Shown here: positions 597 through 45,085 of the stretch, one piece after another | Position numbering within the stretch: position 1 is the stretch's first letter | How the letters are laid out: each line of letters begins with the position of its first letter | From: a virus | Strand: one strand, 5' to 3' | DNA: 47,283 bases | Virus record (IMG/VR): IMGVR_UViG_3300043122_000072 | Coordinates: 1 to 47,283 of that record | Program-made: the position numbers and the translations under genes | The notes under the pieces: generated by a model | Seen by the model: the letters and a program-made list of their open reading frames with translations, nothing else | What the model was told of the DNA's origin: nothing | The model's database searches: none

Positions 597-610
<14 letters not shown>
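284..610 (+). CDS. Small protein, possible ribbon-helix-helix-like N-terminus
   Basis: A 108-residue protein behind a good ribosome-binding site (AAGAGGA) and the promoter at 229-257. Residues about 10-40 (VRIAEDVLTAFDQLCGSMSR, then QAVRYLVKR) read like the strand-helix-helix of a ribbon-helix-helix DNA-binding domain, but no family is recognised with certainty. The rest is basic with three cysteines and no clear motif. As the first gene after the polymerase under its own operator-bearing promoter it could be a regulator; that is inference. Its end overlaps the next start by 14 bases, implying translational coupling. Confidence 0.65.
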
Positions 611-830
<220 letters not shown>

Positions 831-3599: not shown

Positions 3600-4039
3600 T
3601 GGCTAAATCGCCCACTGAACGCAACAAGGATTACCGGGATCGGGTCAAGCTGAAAACGGCTCTGCTATCTGACATCGATCGTGCGCGGCGTGAAGACCTG
3701 GCCGAGCAGTTTGAACGCACGACTGGCGACCCCGAGCTTATTGCCACACTGCGTGAATACTTCACGCGGCACCCGATGTGCTTTACGGCGCCCGTGGCTG
3801 TTAACAGGATAGGCCGCCGGATAGATATGGTGTTCCGACCTTTAGGCCGGGATCACGAGCCCGCTGCGGCGCTAATCGCACTTGCCAACAAAGGTTATGA
3901 TTTGAACCTGATCGTGCGCGACAAGTTCTACGACGCCGGAGCGCGGTTTGATTTCGTGCGGGCTGCCACGCTGACGGCGATACGTGCCAAGCGCGAAGAG
4001 CTTATCGCCGCAGGCTTGTGGGGCGATACCCCGCTTTAA
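3599..4039 (+). CDS. Hypothetical phage protein (146 aa)
   Basis: The ATG at 3599 follows GGAGGGG and overlaps the previous stop. The protein begins with a charged helix (SPTERNKDYRDRVKLK), then residues about 50-146 form an alpha/beta region (TAPVAVNRIGRRIDMVFRPL, KFYDAGARFDFVRAATL). No motif identifies a function. It is the last small gene before the primase-helicase, separated by 50 bases without a strong promoter, so it probably shares that transcript. Confidence 0.7.
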   Translation: MAKSPTERNKDYRDRVKLKTALLSDIDRARREDLAEQFERTTGDPELIATLREYFTRHPMCFTAPVAVNRIGRRIDMVFRPLGRDHEPAAALIALANKGYDLNLIVRDKFYDAGARFDFVRAATLTAIRAKREELIAAGLWGDTPL

Positions 4040-4089
4040 GTCCCACAATCACCACCCCTGACAACCCAAGAATAAAAGCGGTGTTAAGC

Positions 4090-6306
4090 ATGGCAACCGA
4101 CGACGCAGTAACCTTCCTTGAACGCTTTGACCCCTCGGGGCTGCACCACCTCGTTTCTATAGACCCGGAAACCCGAGCTGTAACCGGCAAGCTGTTCCAA
4201 CCCGCTAAATGGGCGGATATGGCAGCGTGGGTTGATCGCCAGAACCGAGAGCTTAAGCGCAACGTCTATTTCACGGTCAACGAACCGTGCGACAACGCGC
4301 CAGACACCAAGCTCAAAAAAGAGCACATAAGATACATCCGGGCTGTTTTTGCCGATGTAGACCCGGACAAGTCCGAGCCGCTGGCGGCTGAACGCGCCAG
4401 GTTAAGCGGGCTATTTGACAAGCTTATGGCTGGTTCTATACCGCCAAGCTATACGATTGATAGCGGCGGCGGCATGCAGTTCTTCTGGAAGCTGGAGGGT
4501 CATGGCTACGGGCCCGAGCATTTCAGCTGGGCCGAAGACCAGGGCCGGGGTTTTGCGCACGCCTTATCGGGCGACCCGATCGGCAATATTGATCGCGTGA
4601 TGCGCCTGCCCGGTACAGTAAACTACCCTGACGCCAAAAAACGGGCGGCAGGACGTGTACCGACAGAAGCCGTGCTGCTGGCTAAGACGACACATACCTA
4701 CACCGTGGAAGGCCTTGTATCGGCTGTAAAACCGATGGCGCAAACTGAAAGCGACACGGACAGCGACGAGCGCATTACCGAAGTGCGCAAGAGCCTCGAT
4801 ATGGCATCAATGCACGAACTCTCCCCGGAGCTTAAACAGAAATTCGCCACGGCGGCCACGTACCGGCCTGTGTTGCGTGAACTGTGGGACGGCTCGGAAA
4901 CCGGCCTTATAGGCGATGATACGTCAGGCTCTGGCTATCGCGCTTCGCTTGCCGCACGTTTGTGCGAAGCAGGCGATTTCACGGCGCAGGAATACGGCCA
5001 GCTGCTTCATAACTGGGATTTTGCGGTTCAAGGCGGCGATGCAGACGCCAAACTATCAGCGCGTACCATTGCGCGGGACTGGGTCCGCATCGGCTTACCG
5101 CGCCATCCATCGTCTTATTTCGAGGTTCTACCAGAGCCGGAGATAGACCCGTTCACAGCTTACGCTATGTCAGAAGATGGCCAGAAAGAACGCGCAGAAG
5201 ATACGCGCACAGTGCAGTTCGACTGGATAGACCCCGCCAAATGGGAAGGCCTCGAACCCCCTGCGCGCGAATGGGAAGTCGAAGGCTGGGTGCCTAAAGG
5301 CGAGATAACCCTGATCTATGGTGACGGCGGCATCGGCAAGACATTGCTGGCCCACCAATACGCAACAGCTGCGGCTGCGGGCGGTGACTGGCTGGGGTTG
5401 CCGACAAAACAAGCGCGCGTCATGGCGATGTTCTGCGAGGATAGCGAAGATGAACTGCATCGCAGGCAGCGTGACATTGACCACCTGTTGGGGTATCAAC
5501 CGTCGGATTACAGCGCAAACCTGCGCATAGCGTCTCGCAAATACATGGATAACCTGCTTACGATCTGGAACCAGCACACGGGCGAAATGAAGCGCACGGC
5601 GGTTTGGGCTGCCTTGCGTGACGACGCTGTGCGGTGGGGTGCGACGGTTATCATCGTCGACACGATCGCCGACACTTATTCAGGCTCCGAGATTGACCGG
5701 GCCCAGGTCAACACGTTTGTCAAGTCATGCCTTGGTCGTCTTGCGCAAGAGATAAACGGTTCCATCATTGCCCTTGGCCACCCTTCAATGTCAGGTATGG
5801 CCAGCGGCAACGGTTCGTCAGGGTCTACAGCGTGGAGCAACGCTGCGCGGTCGCGGCTATACCTGCGCTACCCGAAGGGCGTTGAGACAGGCGATACGCG
5901 CGAACTGGCGGGGATGAAGCTGAATTATGGGCCCAAGGGCGCGCTGCTTAAATTAAAGTGGAGCCGTGGCGCGTTTATCGTCACGTCTGGCAACTTGCCG
6001 GGATCGTCCAGCGCGGCGTTCCGATCTATTGACGACATGGTTGACCAGCACTTGCGTGAGGCTCTCGCACGCCTTGAAATACGTCCGTTATCTGACAAGC
6101 CCAAGAATGTTAATTACGCTCCGCGTGTCCTGCGCGAAAGCCACGAGCCGCTTTATGAGTTCAGCATTGAAGAGCTCGAAGCCGGGCTGATCCGTATCGG
6201 CTTTCAGCCGGCCTTGTGGTTCGACAAGTTCAAAAGCAATCTGGCCGCAGCTACCGAAGCGGCTGCGGCCAGTATGTTCGAGGATCAGGATAGCATATTC
6301 GACTAG
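4090..6306 (+). CDS. Primase-helicase (AEP-type primase plus RepA/AAA_25 helicase)
   Basis: A 738-residue replication protein. The start at 4090 (MATDDAVTFLERF) matches where homologous folds begin; the upstream ATG at 4018 lies in the previous gene. The N-terminal part has a primase-polymerase-like D-x-D (ADVDP, residues about 88-92) and IDSGGGMQFFWKL, as in RepB/archaeo-eukaryotic-type phage primases. From about residue 400 there is a RecA-fold helicase: Walker A GDGGIGKT (about 411-418), an acidic FCEDSEDE segment, Walker B VIIVDT (about 520) and a GHP motif. It should unwind DNA and prime synthesis for the polymerase at 45082. The C-terminus ends in an acidic DSIFD tip shared with other replication genes here. 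Confidence 0.85.
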   Translation: MATDDAVTFLERFDPSGLHHLVSIDPETRAVTGKLFQPAKWADMAAWVDRQNRELKRNVYFTVNEPCDNAPDTKLKKEHIRYIRAVFADVDPDKSEPLAAERARLSGLFDKLMAGSIPPSYTIDSGGGMQFFWKLEGHGYGPEHFSWAEDQGRGFAHALSGDPIGNIDRVMRLPGTVNYPDAKKRAAGRVPTEAVLLAKTTHTYTVEGLVSAVKPMAQTESDTDSDERITEVRKSLDMASMHELSPELKQKFATAATYRPVLRELWDGSETGLIGDDTSGSGYRASLAARLCEAGDFTAQEYGQLLHNWDFAVQGGDADAKLSARTIARDWVRIGLPRHPSSYFEVLPEPEIDPFTAYAMSEDGQKERAEDTRTVQFDWIDPAKWEGLEPPAREWEVEGWVPKGEITLIYGDGGIGKTLLAHQYATAAAAGGDWLGLPTKQARVMAMFCEDSEDELHRRQRDIDHLLGYQPSDYSANLRIASRKYMDNLLTIWNQHTGEMKRTAVWAALRDDAVRWGATVIIVDTIADTYSGSEIDRAQVNTFVKSCLGRLAQEINGSIIALGHPSMSGMASGNGSSGSTAWSNAARSRLYLRYPKGVETGDTRELAGMKLNYGPKGALLKLKWSRGAFIVTSGNLPGSSSAAFRSIDDMVDQHLREALARLEIRPLSDKPKNVNYAPRVLRESHEPLYEFSIEELEAGLIRIGFQPALWFDKFKSNLAAATEAAAASMFEDQDSIFD

Positions 6307-11214: not shown

Positions 11215-11664
11215 ATGCCCAAAAGGTCTGGCCGCCTCACACCGCAAGAATTGACCTTTGCTAAGGTCATGTCCGATACGGGCGATAAGCACTATGCAGC
11301 GGACCAAGCGGGATACAGCAACGCCAAAGTACAGGGCTCCCAACTGATCAACAAGCCCGCCATACAGGCTCAGGTCATACAGTATCAGGCCGCGCGCCTG
11401 GTTGAACAAGGTCTGCCCGCTGCCATTGACTGCCTGATTGGGCTCGTCACCAACGACAAGGCCCCCGCTGGCGCGCGCGTACAGGCCGCTAAGATAATCC
11501 TGGACCGGTCATTTGGGGGCGATACGGGCGCTGCCGCCAAAGAATTGCACGAGATGACGCCAGACGAATTGCAGCAAGCCATCGATCGCTTGCGCAAAGA
11601 GGCAGCGGACCGGGCCAAGCCCGTGATCGATGTTGAACCCCAGGAAGGCAACATATTCGAGTAG
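11215..11664 (+). CDS. terS: Terminase small subunit
   Basis: A 149-residue protein with RBS GAGGA before the ATG. It has the terminase-small layout: LTPQELTFAKVM, then a helix-turn-helix-like HYAADQAGYSNAKVQGSQL, a central helical region (RLVEQGLPAAIDCLIGLVTN, AGARVQAAKIILDRSFG) and a charged C-terminus. It binds the packaging site and loads the large subunit, encoded far downstream at 17073. The C-terminus ends EGNIFE, a variant of the I-F tip on the replication proteins, which is unexpected for a packaging protein. Intergenic 11096-11214 contains AT-rich sequence and possible weak rightward promoters. Confidence 0.8.
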   Translation: MPKRSGRLTPQELTFAKVMSDTGDKHYAADQAGYSNAKVQGSQLINKPAIQAQVIQYQAARLVEQGLPAAIDCLIGLVTNDKAPAGARVQAAKIILDRSFGGDTGAAAKELHEMTPDELQQAIDRLRKEAADRAKPVIDVEPQEGNIFE

Positions 11665-36208: not shown

Positions 36209-36706
36209 ATGCGTATTCTAGGCGTTGACCCCGGCGCGAAAGGCGCTATCGCGTTACTTGTGGGCGGCGTATTGGTTGAAGTGCACGATATGCCCGCGCT
36301 AAAAATACACCGCGGCAAATCTGACAAGGACGAAGTAGACGGGTATGAACTGGGGTTATTGCTCCGGGAGCTGCGCCCCGACATCGCGTTCGTCGAACAA
36401 GTGGGTGGCATGGAAGGCCAGGCGGCGGGGGCGGCGTTTAATTTCGGACGCGCCGCAGGGGCTGTCGAATACGCGCTAAAGGCGCTTGGCGTGAGGGTTG
36501 ATATGGTTTCGCCTGTCCGCTGGAAACGCGAGCTTCGCGTGACGAAAGGCAAGGACGGGAGCCTGGCAGACGCAAAACGGTTGTGGCCGCATATGGCCGC
36601 CTCGTTCCGATTTAAGAAAGACAACGACCGGGCCGAAGCCGCACTAATAGCGGAATGGGGCCGTAAATTCAAACTTGGAGAACAAACAGATGATATTTTT
36701 GAGTGA
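36209..36706 (+). CDS. RuvC-like Holliday junction resolvase
   Basis: A 165-residue protein with the RNase H-fold pattern of RuvC: MRILGVDPGAKGAIALL (Asp7), IAFVEQVGGMEGQ (Glu), SPVRWKRELRVTKGKD with basic substrate-binding residues, and KDNDRAEAALIAEWGRK with the last acidic residues. It resolves branched DNA made in replication and recombination before packaging. The C-terminus ends GEQTDDIFE, one of the I-F tails. It overlaps the next gene by 17 bases. Confidence 0.88.
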   Translation: MRILGVDPGAKGAIALLVGGVLVEVHDMPALKIHRGKSDKDEVDGYELGLLLRELRPDIAFVEQVGGMEGQAAGAAFNFGRAAGAVEYALKALGVRVDMVSPVRWKRELRVTKGKDGSLADAKRLWPHMAASFRFKKDNDRAEAALIAEWGRKFKLGEQTDDIFE

Positions 36707-41896: not shown

Positions 41897-42541
41897 ATGA
41901 ACTACGCACGCACCAAACAAGGCCGCATCGTCAGCGACGGTTTCCCCGCGCCGGAGTGCATTGTCGCCTTCGCCAAGCATTTGTGGGAACCACAGACCCA
42001 CGACGATGGCAAACAGAACTACAACTGCACGCTGCTCTGGGCCAAGGCGATTGATCTCTCAGCATTGCGCAAAATCTGCGTTGACGCATGCGTCAAGGAT
42101 TGGGGTGAAAAAGCCGTTGAACAAATCAAAGATGGCACGATTAAAAACCCGTTTCTCGACGGCGATGGGCGCCAGGCGGTCAACAAAAAGACGGATGAAC
42201 GCCACCCGGGCTTCGCGGGTACGTGGTTCCTTCGGGTATCGTCTGGTGTAGACCACCAGCCGAAGATCGTCGATCGCAACGTCCGCCCCGTCATTGATCG
42301 GGATCGCCTGCCGTCCGGCTCGCGTATTATCCCGTTTATCAATGCCTATACGTGGGAAAGCAAGCAGGGCAAAGGCGTGTCTTTCGGTATCTCCGGTGTC
42401 CAGATTGTCAAAACCGCCGAAGGCGACGAAATTCTTGGCGGTGGTGGCGGCCCGGCTGCTGATCAGATGTTTGAAAAGATTGAAGCCTCTGACGAAGACA
42501 AAAACGACGCAGTAACTTCTGCTGACGAATTATTTGGCTAA
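41897..42541 (+). CDS. DUF2815 single-stranded DNA-binding protein
   Basis: A 214-residue protein: FPAPECIVAFAKHLWEPQTH, NPFLDGDGRQAVNKKTDERH, PGFAGTWFLRVSSGVDHQPK, RIIPFINAYTWESKQGKGVS, FGISGVQIVKTAEGDEILGG match DUF2815, an OB-fold ssDNA-binding family paired with DUF2800 nucleases. The C-terminus is acidic (EASDEDKNDAVTSADELFG), as in SSB and T7 gp2.5, where the acidic aromatic tail recruits partners. Its tip, E-L-F-G, is a version of the I-F tail of other replication proteins here. Confidence 0.87.
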   Translation: MNYARTKQGRIVSDGFPAPECIVAFAKHLWEPQTHDDGKQNYNCTLLWAKAIDLSALRKICVDACVKDWGEKAVEQIKDGTIKNPFLDGDGRQAVNKKTDERHPGFAGTWFLRVSSGVDHQPKIVDRNVRPVIDRDRLPSGSRIIPFINAYTWESKQGKGVSFGISGVQIVKTAEGDEILGGGGGPAADQMFEKIEASDEDKNDAVTSADELFG

Positions 42542-42609: not shown

Positions 42610-42867
42610 ATGCCTGAGATCGGACACAACAGCCAGCCCGGCGGGATCGCGGCTGATCAGCTCACCTCGTATATCAAGCGTATCGAGCGCCTTGAAGAAG
42701 AAAAGGCCAACATTCAAGCCGATATCAAAGAAGTTTACGGCGAGGCCAAAGCGCTTGGGTACGACGTTAAAACCATGCGCCAGGTCATTAAGCGCCGCAA
42801 AATCGAAAAAGACAAACGCGACGAACAGGATGCCCTGCTCCACGTATACGAGAGCATCTTTGACTGA
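42610..42867 (+). CDS. GapR-like (DUF2312) nucleoid protein
   Basis: An 85-residue protein with GGAG before the ATG. AADQLTSYIKRIERLEEEKA, NIQADIKEVYGEAKALGYDV, KTMRQVIKRRKIEKDKRDEQ, DALLHVYESIFD follows GapR/UPF0335. In Caulobacter GapR is a tetramer that clamps over-twisted DNA ahead of forks and helps type II topoisomerases. A phage copy may manage supercoils or compete with the host protein. Families with this sequence are typical of alphaproteobacteria, the main host clue. It ends in SIFD, a form of the I-F tail that host GapR does not, to my knowledge, show. Confidence 0.88.
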   Translation: MPEIGHNSQPGGIAADQLTSYIKRIERLEEEKANIQADIKEVYGEAKALGYDVKTMRQVIKRRKIEKDKRDEQDALLHVYESIFD

Positions 42868-43096
42868 CGTCGGGAGCCTGCTGGAAGAGGCGGTACAGAC
42901 TGGCCGCCTCGACGGCATCACGATCTACCCGTCGCAGAACTGGGGCTGGCAGGTTTCAATCAAACAAAAAGGCAGCGAAGGCTACGTGTGCAACATGGGC
43001 CCGGACCTCGTCACGCTGCTGGCGGAAAGCCTTGCGTCTTTTAATCGGGGGCGTGCAAGCAAAACCCCCGCAGAGGAAGAGGATATTTTCGGATGA
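42860..43096 (+). CDS. Small protein (78 aa) with EEDIFG tail
   Basis: No ATG fits; the conserved-looking part begins at TTG 42860 (TDVGSLLEEAVQTGRLDGIT), which overlaps the GapR-like stop and has GAGAG upstream. The longer frame from 42692 is only a shadow of that gene. IYPSQNWGWQVSIKQKGSEG and MGPDLVTLLAESLASFNRG give a small beta-alpha protein, followed by a short linker and the acidic EEEDIFG tip shared with replication proteins. Function unknown. Confidence 0.65.
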   Translation: MTDVGSLLEEAVQTGRLDGITIYPSQNWGWQVSIKQKGSEGYVCNMGPDLVTLLAESLASFNRGRASKTPAEEEDIFG

Positions 43097-43530
43097 GATC
43101 GCGAGATAGTAAAGGCCGGTTTCTCCCGAATTACCTCGTAGACACGTTCGATCCGCGCGGCTGGCCGGAGCCTTTACCCTACAACCAGCTATGTATCGAT
43201 TACCGCGCGGGCATCAACTGCATTCTCGATTACAACGATTATATATGGGCGGTTCATTGGTGTTGGCAGTCAGTGCCGAACAGCCGGAAAAATAAGTTAT
43301 ACGTGGTTCGGTCCACTAGCGTGAACGGGCGTAAGCGCTCGCTATATCTCCACAAGATAATACTGGAGCGCGCGGGACAAGAACCACCCAGCGCCAAGCA
43401 TATTATAGGCGATCACATTAACGGCGACAGCCTTGATAACCGCCGCTGCAATCTGCGCTGGGCCACGCCATCCGAGAACGCCAGAAATAGAAACGGGAGC
43501 TGGTATCGTCAATTCCAGCTTGAACTGTAG
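43093..43530 (+). CDS. HNH homing-type endonuclease
   Basis: A 145-residue protein in an ATGA overlap. CIDYRAGINCILDYNDYIWA, LYVVRSTSVNGRKRSLYLHK, then HIIGDHINGDSLDNRRCNLR and WATPSENARNRNG show the HNH_3-type core (DH-NGD-N-R) with downstream DNA-binding segment. It can cut DNA and may act as a selfish homing nuclease. It sits right beside the methyltransferase gene, whose overlapping frame carries another HNH module. Confidence 0.87.
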   Translation: MRSRDSKGRFLPNYLVDTFDPRGWPEPLPYNQLCIDYRAGINCILDYNDYIWAVHWCWQSVPNSRKNKLYVVRSTSVNGRKRSLYLHKIILERAGQEPPSAKHIIGDHINGDSLDNRRCNLRWATPSENARNRNGSWYRQFQLEL

Positions 43531-43540
43531 GTTTTGACGC

Positions 43541-45085
43541 ATGACAGCCTTATACAACGAAATTGACCCTTACGCCGCGCAGTGGCTTCGCAATCTTATT
43601 GCCGCCGGCCATATCGCGCCGGGCGATGTCACAGAAAAGGATATTCGCGATGTCAGACCAAGCGACCTCGAAGGGTACACCCAAGTCCACTTCTTCGCCG
43701 GTATCGGCGTCTGGAGCCATGCGCTCAGACTTGCCGGATGGCCCGACGACCGGCCCGTCTGGACGGGCTCCTGCCCGTGCCAACCTTTCAGCGCGGCAGG
43801 CCGAAGAGGCGGGGTTGCTGACGAGCGGCACCTATGGCCCCACTGGTTCCACCTCATTGGCCAGTGCCAACCTGCAAGCGTCTTTGGCGAGCAAGTTGCA
43901 AGCAAAGACGGCCTTGGGTGGCTCGACATTGTACAAGCTGACATGGAAGGAGCGGGTTACGCCTTTGGGGCGGCAGATTTGTGCGTTGCGGGCTTCGGTG
44001 GTCCGCACATCCGGCAGCGACTGTTCTTTGGCGCGAGCCGGGTGGAACACGCCAGCGACGACGGATCACAAGGGCGGGCGTATCAGGGACGGCAAGCTAT
44101 CGACGGACCGGCTGGATGTGACGGCGCAATTAGCGGGGTGGCCGACCCCGACCAGCAACAATTCGACAGGGCCCGGTGTATCGGGACGGGAAGGCGGGAT
44201 GAACCTTCAAACTGCGGTGCAGTTGAGCGGATGGAACACGCCGGCAGCGAGCGACGGGAACGGAGGGAAACGACCGCACCCCGACACCAGCATGACGGGG
44301 AAACATCCGTCCGGTCGAAAAGTCAATATGGGTCTGGCCAGTCAAGCGCATATCGGGTTTCTCAAGACGCAGCCTATCCGACTGACGGCTTCTGGCGAGA
44401 TGCTGACTGGCTCGGATGCCGCGATGGGAAGTTCCGGCCAGTTAGACCCGGCTCATTCCCGCTGGTTAACGGGGCTGCCCCAAGAATGGGATGTATGTGC
44501 GCCTGCTGTGGCATGGAAACTCGGCGGCAAGGCGTTGACGTGCTTACACTGCGGGAGGGACTACTCGGGCACGAAAGACGCATCGCGGAAGAAATTCTGC
44601 GACAAGGAGTGCTATCGGTTGTACCGCCTTACGCAGCCACTGACGAACAAAAGTACGGGGCACTATCGGGCGCGGGCGGCAACGCTAGCGACGACGTGTT
44701 CGATGTGCGGCACGAAGAAAAACCTTCACGTACATCACATAGATCGCAACGTGCTGAACGACGCGGCGGAAAATTTGCAGGTTCTGTGCGCGGAATGCCA
44801 CCGAGCGGAGCATGCGACGCCACCCCCAACGTCGAGCTGCGCGGTATGCGGTACGGAATTTACGGCGAAGTCACACAGGAACCGGAACAAGATTTGTTCT
44901 GCCCGTTGTGCCAGCGAGTGGGGGCGCATTTCTGCGAGGAAGAGATGGCAGGCGACAGGGCCGGACGCTTGCGCGCCTACGGCAACGCGATCAGCCCGTG
45001 GCCCGCGAAAGCCTTCATCGAAAGCTTCGACGACGCCTGCCGAGGACATTTTCAGCTAGACGCCGAAGAGGACATTTTCTCATGA
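43541..45085 (+). CDS. DNA cytosine-5 methyltransferase, interrupted by in-frame insert
   Basis: A 514-residue protein. Motif I FFAGIGVWSHALRLAGW (about 51-67), motif IV PCQPFSAAGRRGG (Cys80), motif VI FGEQVASKDG (Glu117), motif VIII PHIRQRLFFGAS, target-recognition part with GFWRDADWLGCRDGKFRPVR, and motif X RLRAYGNAISPWPAKAFI (about 476-493) mark a C5 methyltransferase, probably protecting phage DNA from host restriction. Between ...NGAAPRMG and RLRAYGN, which are contiguous in relatives as I remember them, lies a 158-residue Arg/Gly-rich stretch that is the shadow of an HNH module in the overlapping frame. It ends AEEDIFS. Confidence 0.88.
   Translation: MTALYNEIDPYAAQWLRNLIAAGHIAPGDVTEKDIRDVRPSDLEGYTQVHFFAGIGVWSHALRLAGWPDDRPVWTGSCPCQPFSAAGRRGGVADERHLWPHWFHLIGQCQPASVFGEQVASKDGLGWLDIVQADMEGAGYAFGAADLCVAGFGGPHIRQRLFFGASRVEHASDDGSQGRAYQGRQAIDGPAGCDGAISGVADPDQQQFDRARCIGTGRRDEPSNCGAVERMEHAGSERRERRETTAPRHQHDGETSVRSKSQYGSGQSSAYRVSQDAAYPTDGFWRDADWLGCRDGKFRPVRPGSFPLVNGAAPRMGCMCACCGMETRRQGVDVLTLREGLLGHERRIAEEILRQGVLSVVPPYAATDEQKYGALSGAGGNASDDVFDVRHEEKPSRTSHRSQRAERRGGKFAGSVRGMPPSGACDATPNVELRGMRYGIYGEVTQEPEQDLFCPLCQRVGAHFCEEEMAGDRAGRLRAYGNAISPWPAKAFIESFDDACRGHFQLDAEEDIFS
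43650..45059 (+). CDS. Overprinted protein in +1 frame of the methyltransferase, with HNH module
   Basis: A 469-residue frame inside the methyltransferase gene, with ATG 43650 nine bases after AAAAGG. SDLPDGPTTGPSGRAPARAN, TSGTYGPTGSTSLASANLQA, LYKLTWKERVTPLGRQICAL, repeated GWPTPT/GWNTPAASDGN units and LDPAHSRWLTGLPQEWDVCA recur, to my knowledge, in phage proteins overlapping methyltransferases. In addition residues 286-443 form a zinc-finger and HNH module (CLHCGRDYSG, CSMCGTKKNLHVHHIDRNVL, LCAECHRAEH, CAVCGTEFTA). It ends TTPAEDIFS, the same tail as the other frame but from a separate copy of the coding DNA. Confidence 0.65.
   Translation: MSDQATSKGTPKSTSSPVSASGAMRSDLPDGPTTGPSGRAPARANLSARQAEEAGLLTSGTYGPTGSTSLASANLQASLASKLQAKTALGGSTLYKLTWKERVTPLGRQICALRASVVRTSGSDCSLARAGWNTPATTDHKGGRIRDGKLSTDRLDVTAQLAGWPTPTSNNSTGPGVSGREGGMNLQTAVQLSGWNTPAASDGNGGKRPHPDTSMTGKHPSGRKVNMGLASQAHIGFLKTQPIRLTASGEMLTGSDAAMGSSGQLDPAHSRWLTGLPQEWDVCAPAVAWKLGGKALTCLHCGRDYSGTKDASRKKFCDKECYRLYRLTQPLTNKSTGHYRARAATLATTCSMCGTKKNLHVHHIDRNVLNDAAENLQVLCAECHRAEHATPPPTSSCAVCGTEFTAKSHRNRNKICSARCASEWGRISARKRWQATGPDACAPTATRSARGPRKPSSKASTTPAEDIFS
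44505..44978 (+). mobile_element. HNH-coding insert (474 bp) in both overlapping frames
   Basis: The insert is flanked by similar sequence (TGTGCGCCT before, TGCGCGCCT after), both coding for Cys-Ala-Pro in the second frame. It is a multiple of three, leaves both frames open and consists almost wholly of the HNH/zinc-finger module. It is too short for a group I intron with its own nuclease gene and lacks intein ends. Confidence 0.6.
45032..45079 (+). repeat. Duplicated tail-coding sequence, one copy per frame
   Basis: GAGGACATTTTC occurs at 45042-45053 and 45068-45079, each preceded by GACGCC and a few bases. The 26-bp offset places the first copy in the overprinted frame and the second in the methyltransferase frame; both read Glu-Asp-Ile-Phe before a stop. 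Confidence 0.9.

Follow-up and report, generated by a model that had tools for sequence, protein, structure and literature searches.

One stretch of a viral genome encodes two long proteins in different reading frames, and we propose that together they form a two-polypeptide C5-cytosine DNA methyltransferase, a reading based on sequence comparison to which we give a probability of roughly 0.83. The window, that is, the whole stretch of DNA analysed, is the complete IMG/VR virus record IMGVR_UViG_3300043122_000072 (47,283 nt). In the proposed enzyme, the frame-1 chain, alpha, would contribute the SAM-binding and catalytic domain and the motif X helix, connected by a mostly poorly conserved linker that would stay open so that motif X can be reached. 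The frame-2 chain, beta, would be translated from an ATG of its own within alpha and supply the target-recognition domain (TRD) and motif IX. We infer that the two chains associate into one enzyme with a target site of its own, which would methylate phage DNA, probably as protection against host restriction.

The arrangement occurs across hundreds of phages whose hosts belong to several bacterial phyla, so that phage genes usually annotated as a single ‘DNA methyltransferase’ are likely to represent a split enzyme made from almost fully overlapping genes, with the recognition domain placed in the nested one. Target specificity, the engineering of split methyltransferases and the annotation of such phages thereby become directly testable, and a long overlap with clear selection in each frame offers a case for studying how overlapping genes evolve. 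In the present virus, the second half has also absorbed an HNH DNA-cutting gene, which is probably mobile.

The first-pass annotation, made from the letters of the window, described two long overlapping genes at this locus, and the comparison with relatives bears this out. Frame 2 is a real second gene, in the +1 register relative to frame 1, with 469 codons that start with the ATG at 43650 and lead to a stop at 45059 (Table 1), and its open stretch begins 5′ of that ATG. Synonymous shuffling of the window's frame-1 codons left frame 2 open in 0 of 1,000 replicates, which had on average 7.2 frame-2 stops; the corresponding mean over all loci was 3.3, in a region that had been picked by its open frame. 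A nested +1 frame in the same register is found in 80 of 80 viral relatives and 79 of 80 loci from bacterial genomes. Many frame-2 stops in relatives, which would have spoken against a second gene, were not seen: between frame-1 motifs I and X there are five in 70 relatives, all of them in three loci with HNH inserts. At the other end of the gene, frame 2 of Klebsiella phage YX3973 (L101) is without a stop and runs into a downstream gene annotated as endonuclease VII.

Table 1 Features of the overlapping genes and of tail-bearing open reading frames, in window coordinates
Feature	Position	Strand	Basis
Frame 1 (alpha), 514 aa: catalytic chain of a C5-cytosine methyltransferase, motif order II-III-I, IV-VIII, with X near the C-terminus	43541..45085	+	PF00145, phrog_363, HhaI-like large domain
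Shine-Dalgarno-like AAAAGGA (43635-43641) and beta ATG (43650)	43635..43652	+	Conserved in relatives
Frame 2 (beta), 469 aa: GWxTP-repeat TRD followed by motif IX, the HNH fused in frame and the original C-terminus	43650..45059	+	phrog_1008, substitutions, C-half profile
Alpha motif I, FFAGIG	43691..43708	+	Translation, alignment
Alpha motif IV, PCQPFS (catalytic Cys)	43775..43792	+	Translation, alignment to M.HhaI
TRD region: selection on frame 2 over its whole length; frame 1 neutral, then weakly constrained	44036..44441	+	Substitutions among relatives
Beta motif IX, LDPAHSRWLTGLPQEWD	44442..44492	+	HHalign to single-chain methyltransferases, 93.7%
HNH endonuclease cassette of 158 codons, fused in frame to beta	44493..44966	+	PF01844, recurrent site, frame-2 selection
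Alpha motif X, YGNAI	44978..44992	+	Alignment conservation; frame-1 selection resumes
Beta C-terminal tail EDIFS and stop	45042..45059	+	Sequence
Alpha C-terminal tail EDIFS and stop	45068..45085	+	Sequence
Tail-bearing ORFs in the window	4018-6306, 11215-11664, 36209-36706, 41897-42541, 42692-43096, 42610-42867, 597-830		

Frame 1 matches PF00145 (6.4e-10) and the phrog_363 profile (5e-73), and alpha carries the C5 catalytic-domain motifs I, IV, VI, VIII and X on a HhaI-like large domain. The earlier statement that the methyltransferase frame has all catalytic motifs has to be revised, as motif IX is absent from frame 1 and found in frame 2, and a motif II/III-like block (YNEID) precedes motif I (FFAGIG) within positions 43541-43710. 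The chain is therefore permuted relative to the usual C5 order I-II-III-IV, with HhaI residues 36-48 aligning upstream of motif I. The structural model of alpha has high confidence for most of the first ~170 residues and in the motif X helix, and falls below a pLDDT of 50 over residues 173-288, 305-342 and 356-481 (residue 420 excepted). Its best structural matches are M.HhaI entries (VIA Z 13.9), with 162 of 327 residues matched, or about half of HhaI; the first aligned residue of HhaI is 34, as would be expected if a motif II/III block lies ahead of motif I. In one relative, EBPR siphovirus 2 (gp44, L084), an intein splits methyltransferase motif IV (SCPC/CQPF), and stops inside the intein break the N-terminal part of frame 2, which is open again past it.

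Frame 2 matches the phrog_1008 profile (3.8e-35) and contains GWxTP repeats and the element LxPxHSRWLxGLPxEW. Actinophages, for example Mycobacterium phage ShiLan, have the GWxTP and motif IX elements in one frame with the catalytic half. A profile built from the C-terminal halves of nine single-chain enzymes matches 71 frame-2 proteins and not a single frame-1 protein, and HHalign pairs frame 2 with this single-chain half at 93.7% (E 1.9e-7, the E value being that of one comparison). At the level of profiles, the second half of frame 2 resembles the TRD/motif IX half that single-chain relatives carry in frame, and it is in beta that the motif IX and TRD of a C5 methyltransferase are found. 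Of 69 scored loci of the Paenibacillus-phage type, 55 have motif IX in the +1 frame, one has it in frame 1 and none in the +2 frame; in the other 13 the motif was not recognised. PF00145 does not match beta, a Pfam run on 53 beta members returned no methylase match, and the beta profile found nothing in the PDB up to E 1; an AlphaFold model of beta alone reached a mean pLDDT of 51.6. The assignment of the TRD thus rests on profile similarity to single-chain enzymes and on motif IX, and the poor model of lone beta would fit a chain that folds together with its partner. The start of beta recurs at a fixed place, with the frame-2 ATG at codon -42 relative to motif IV in 74 loci and AGGA, GGAG or GAGG upstream of it in 63 of 85.

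To follow selection frame by frame, we sorted the single substitutions that distinguish related loci by whether they are synonymous or non-synonymous in each frame, considering isolated substitutions only. We used 50 pairs of relatives with no locus entering more than twice; the pairs partly share ancestry, and transitions were given an assumed weight of 2. From the start of the gene to motif IV, selection acts on frame 1 only (frame-2 NS/NN of 0.35-0.37, compared to 0.62 in flanking control genes), and from motif IV to motif VIII it acts on both frames (frame-2 NS/NN 4.6-4.8, frame-1 SN/NN 16-25). Just past motif VIII, in the first half of the TRD, frame-2 NS/NN rises to 9.2 and frame 1 is neutral (SN/NN 0.85), and in the second half the values are 8.4 and 2.63, a weaker constraint on frame 1; the neutrality of frame 1 is therefore limited to part of the TRD stretch. 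Both frames are constrained along motif IX (frame-2 NS/NN 4.3, frame-1 SN/NN 2.2), and at motif X selection is mainly on frame 1 (SN/NN 17.8). The same switch of frames appears in two sets of pairs that use each locus once, and the substitution pattern of the window against 80 relatives agrees. Binned by ten codons, changes that create a frame-2 stop number 27 before about codon -41 from motif IV, and after that there is one, near the 3′ end; the +1 frame of the flanking control genes has 29.

This is the substitution analysis that had been proposed as a check, and it reveals amino-acid selection in both frames that shifts along the gene. Protein-level selection acts on both frames and the start of frame 2 is conserved. 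The substitution pattern, the conserved ATG and Shine-Dalgarno sequence and the paired tails described below support the proposal of the first-pass annotation that proteins are made from both frames.

A single chain made by programmed frameshifting, with ribosomes leaving frame 1 for frame 2 after motif VIII and returning before motif X, would account for selection that moves between the frames at just these two motifs, and for the presence of the same parts in one frame in actinophages. It would leave unexplained that frame 2 has a conserved ATG and Shine-Dalgarno sequence of its own and avoids stops from that ATG onward, that it is selected between motifs IV and VIII, where shifted ribosomes would translate frame 1 only, and that the second TRD half and the motif IX stretch still show constraint on frame 1 beside that on frame 2. 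Its own start and its selection upstream of the switch favour a separate polypeptide, and we consider frameshifting very unlikely. The frame is also most improbably an untranslated by-product of G+C content and frame-1 constraint. Shuffled sequences of a few relatives do stay open often by chance (up to 0.68), but past motif VIII the changes that are synonymous in frame 2 dominate and those synonymous in frame 1 are depleted, the start is conserved, and the nested frame is present also in Paenibacillus and Lactobacillus phages.

If beta is a protein, it could still be an accessory with another role, such as a regulator, to an alpha that is a complete methyltransferase by itself. The catalytic-domain motifs of alpha, the lack of a clear fold in lone beta, the weak constraint that frame 1 shows over the second TRD half, and the large subunit of M.EcoHK31I, which is described with a TRD (PMC3404938), all speak for this. 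We nevertheless judge it unlikely, as alpha is missing motif IX, its residues 173-288 are modelled with low confidence, frame 1 is neutral right after motif VIII, and it is beta that matches the TRD/motif IX half of single-chain methyltransferases. The split enzyme that we prefer has counterpoints of its own: the description of M.EcoHK31I puts the TRD in the large subunit, the opposite placement (PMC3404938), some weak constraint on frame 1 persists in the second TRD half and near motif IX, and the alpha intein of EBPR siphovirus 2 breaks the N-terminal part of frame 2.

Compared by description, M.EcoHK31I appears to be the nearest precedent, and the locus would be a variant of the two-polypeptide C5 methyltransferase. 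M.EcoHK31I itself is a two-polypeptide C5 methyltransferase (YGGCCR) whose small gene is nested in another frame. Its large chain holds motifs I-VIII and X and a predicted TRD and its small chain motif IX, whereas in M.AquI the break falls within the variable region and the small chain carries motif IX as well as motif X (PMC3404938). As far as the description of M.EcoHK31I goes, the present locus shares with it a large chain with I-VIII and X but without IX, and a small chain with IX. It differs in that the TRD, predicted on the large subunit there, is placed on the nested chain here by selection and profile similarity, and in having the II-III block before motif I and an HNH module fused to beta. 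With M.AquI it shares being a natural two-chain C5 methyltransferase, if our reading holds, and it departs from M.AquI in having motif X in the large chain (frame 1, and selected there) and genes that overlap almost fully.

Both profiles correspond to known phage ‘DNA methyltransferase’ families (phrog_363 and phrog_1008; ‘Mte8-like’ in Escherichia phage K1ind2), and some phage records annotate both nested genes; an HNH fusion is outside the usual form of these families. In the literature that we searched, there was no statement that the products of phrog_363 and phrog_1008 make one split enzyme, and nothing on such an arrangement in connection with nested methyltransferases of phages.

The HNH cassette of beta is located between motif IX and motif X, with frame 1 open across it, and matches PF01844 in frame 2 (6.3e-6; 26.7 bits against a family cut-off of 21.4). 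Inserts occur at the same site in six other loci (L001, L010, L085, L267, L270 and L275), and the inserts at this site comprise at least two HNH types, as judged by eye. L001, L010, L085, L267 and L270 have a stop between frame 2 and the HNH ORF; in the window and in L275, the HNH is fused in frame to frame 2. Within the insert, frame 2 is selected and frame 1 is neutral: between the window and L001, 17 changes are silent in frame 2 alone against 5.3 expected, and one in frame 1 alone against 6.1 expected, out of 24 clean changes in this one pair. The module is a recurrent insertion, probably of a mobile endonuclease, and had no place in the ancestral second gene. The HNH module that had been read in frame 2 from the sequence is upheld by the Pfam match.

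A PF01844 module and recurrent insertion at one conserved site of a host gene are features shared with HNH homing-type endonucleases, from which the cassette differs in that frame 1 is open through it and the HNH is fused to beta with no separate ORF. Among other candidate elements, an intron around the HNH, whether group I or of another structured kind, gave no Rfam match up to E 1, and inspection by eye showed no intein ends in the window that would suggest a frame-1 intein spanning the HNH. A functional fusion, in which the TRD that guides methylation would also guide the HNH nuclease, strikes us as a long shot, kept in consideration by the second in-frame fusion at the same site in L275, where the HNH is apparently different. 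If true, one two-frame locus would yield a methyltransferase and a nuclease with a common recognition domain.

Other HNH genes were encountered along the way. A separate, second HNH endonuclease gene lies directly 5′ of the methyltransferase, at window positions 43093-43530. HNH matches in L088 and L090 fall within other genes and none within methyltransferases: at 2740-3211 of L088, an HNH ORF lies out of frame inside a DNA polymerase III alpha-like ORF, and at 2271-3183 of L090 another lies out of frame inside an intein-bearing terminase-like ORF (both host ORFs named by eye).

The two chains share their C-terminal tail. As first reported for a 12-base tail-coding sequence, GAGGACATTTTC is present at 45042 and 45068, 26 bases apart, and places EDIFS ahead of each stop; a near copy, GAGGATATTTTC, is found at 43079, and the gene upstream ends in EEEDIFG. 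With a pattern drawn up after the tails had been seen, (D/E/N/S)(I/L)F(D/E/G/S), 6 of 67 window ORFs carry the tail compared to 0.19 expected, and the list grows longer once frame 2 and shorter ORFs are included. The carriers include a primase/helicase, a terminase-small-subunit-like protein, a RuvC-like resolvase and a single-stranded DNA-binding protein (SSB). EDIFS is a C-terminal tag shared within this phage, mainly by DNA-processing proteins. The tag hints at a possible docking function for such proteins, and our guess is that it docks to a replication protein.

The repeat had been regarded as the strongest sign that both frames are translated; it is present, but as one instance of a phage-wide tail. 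The overlap without the tails, named in the first-pass annotation as evidence against its proposal, is literally what 148 of the 152 scored loci have; the remaining four carry the tail on both frames, and no locus has it on one alone. In L016, L052 and L275, three loci that may share ancestry, the paired tails are encoded by different nucleotides, and the pairing there is thus unlike a recent DNA duplication.
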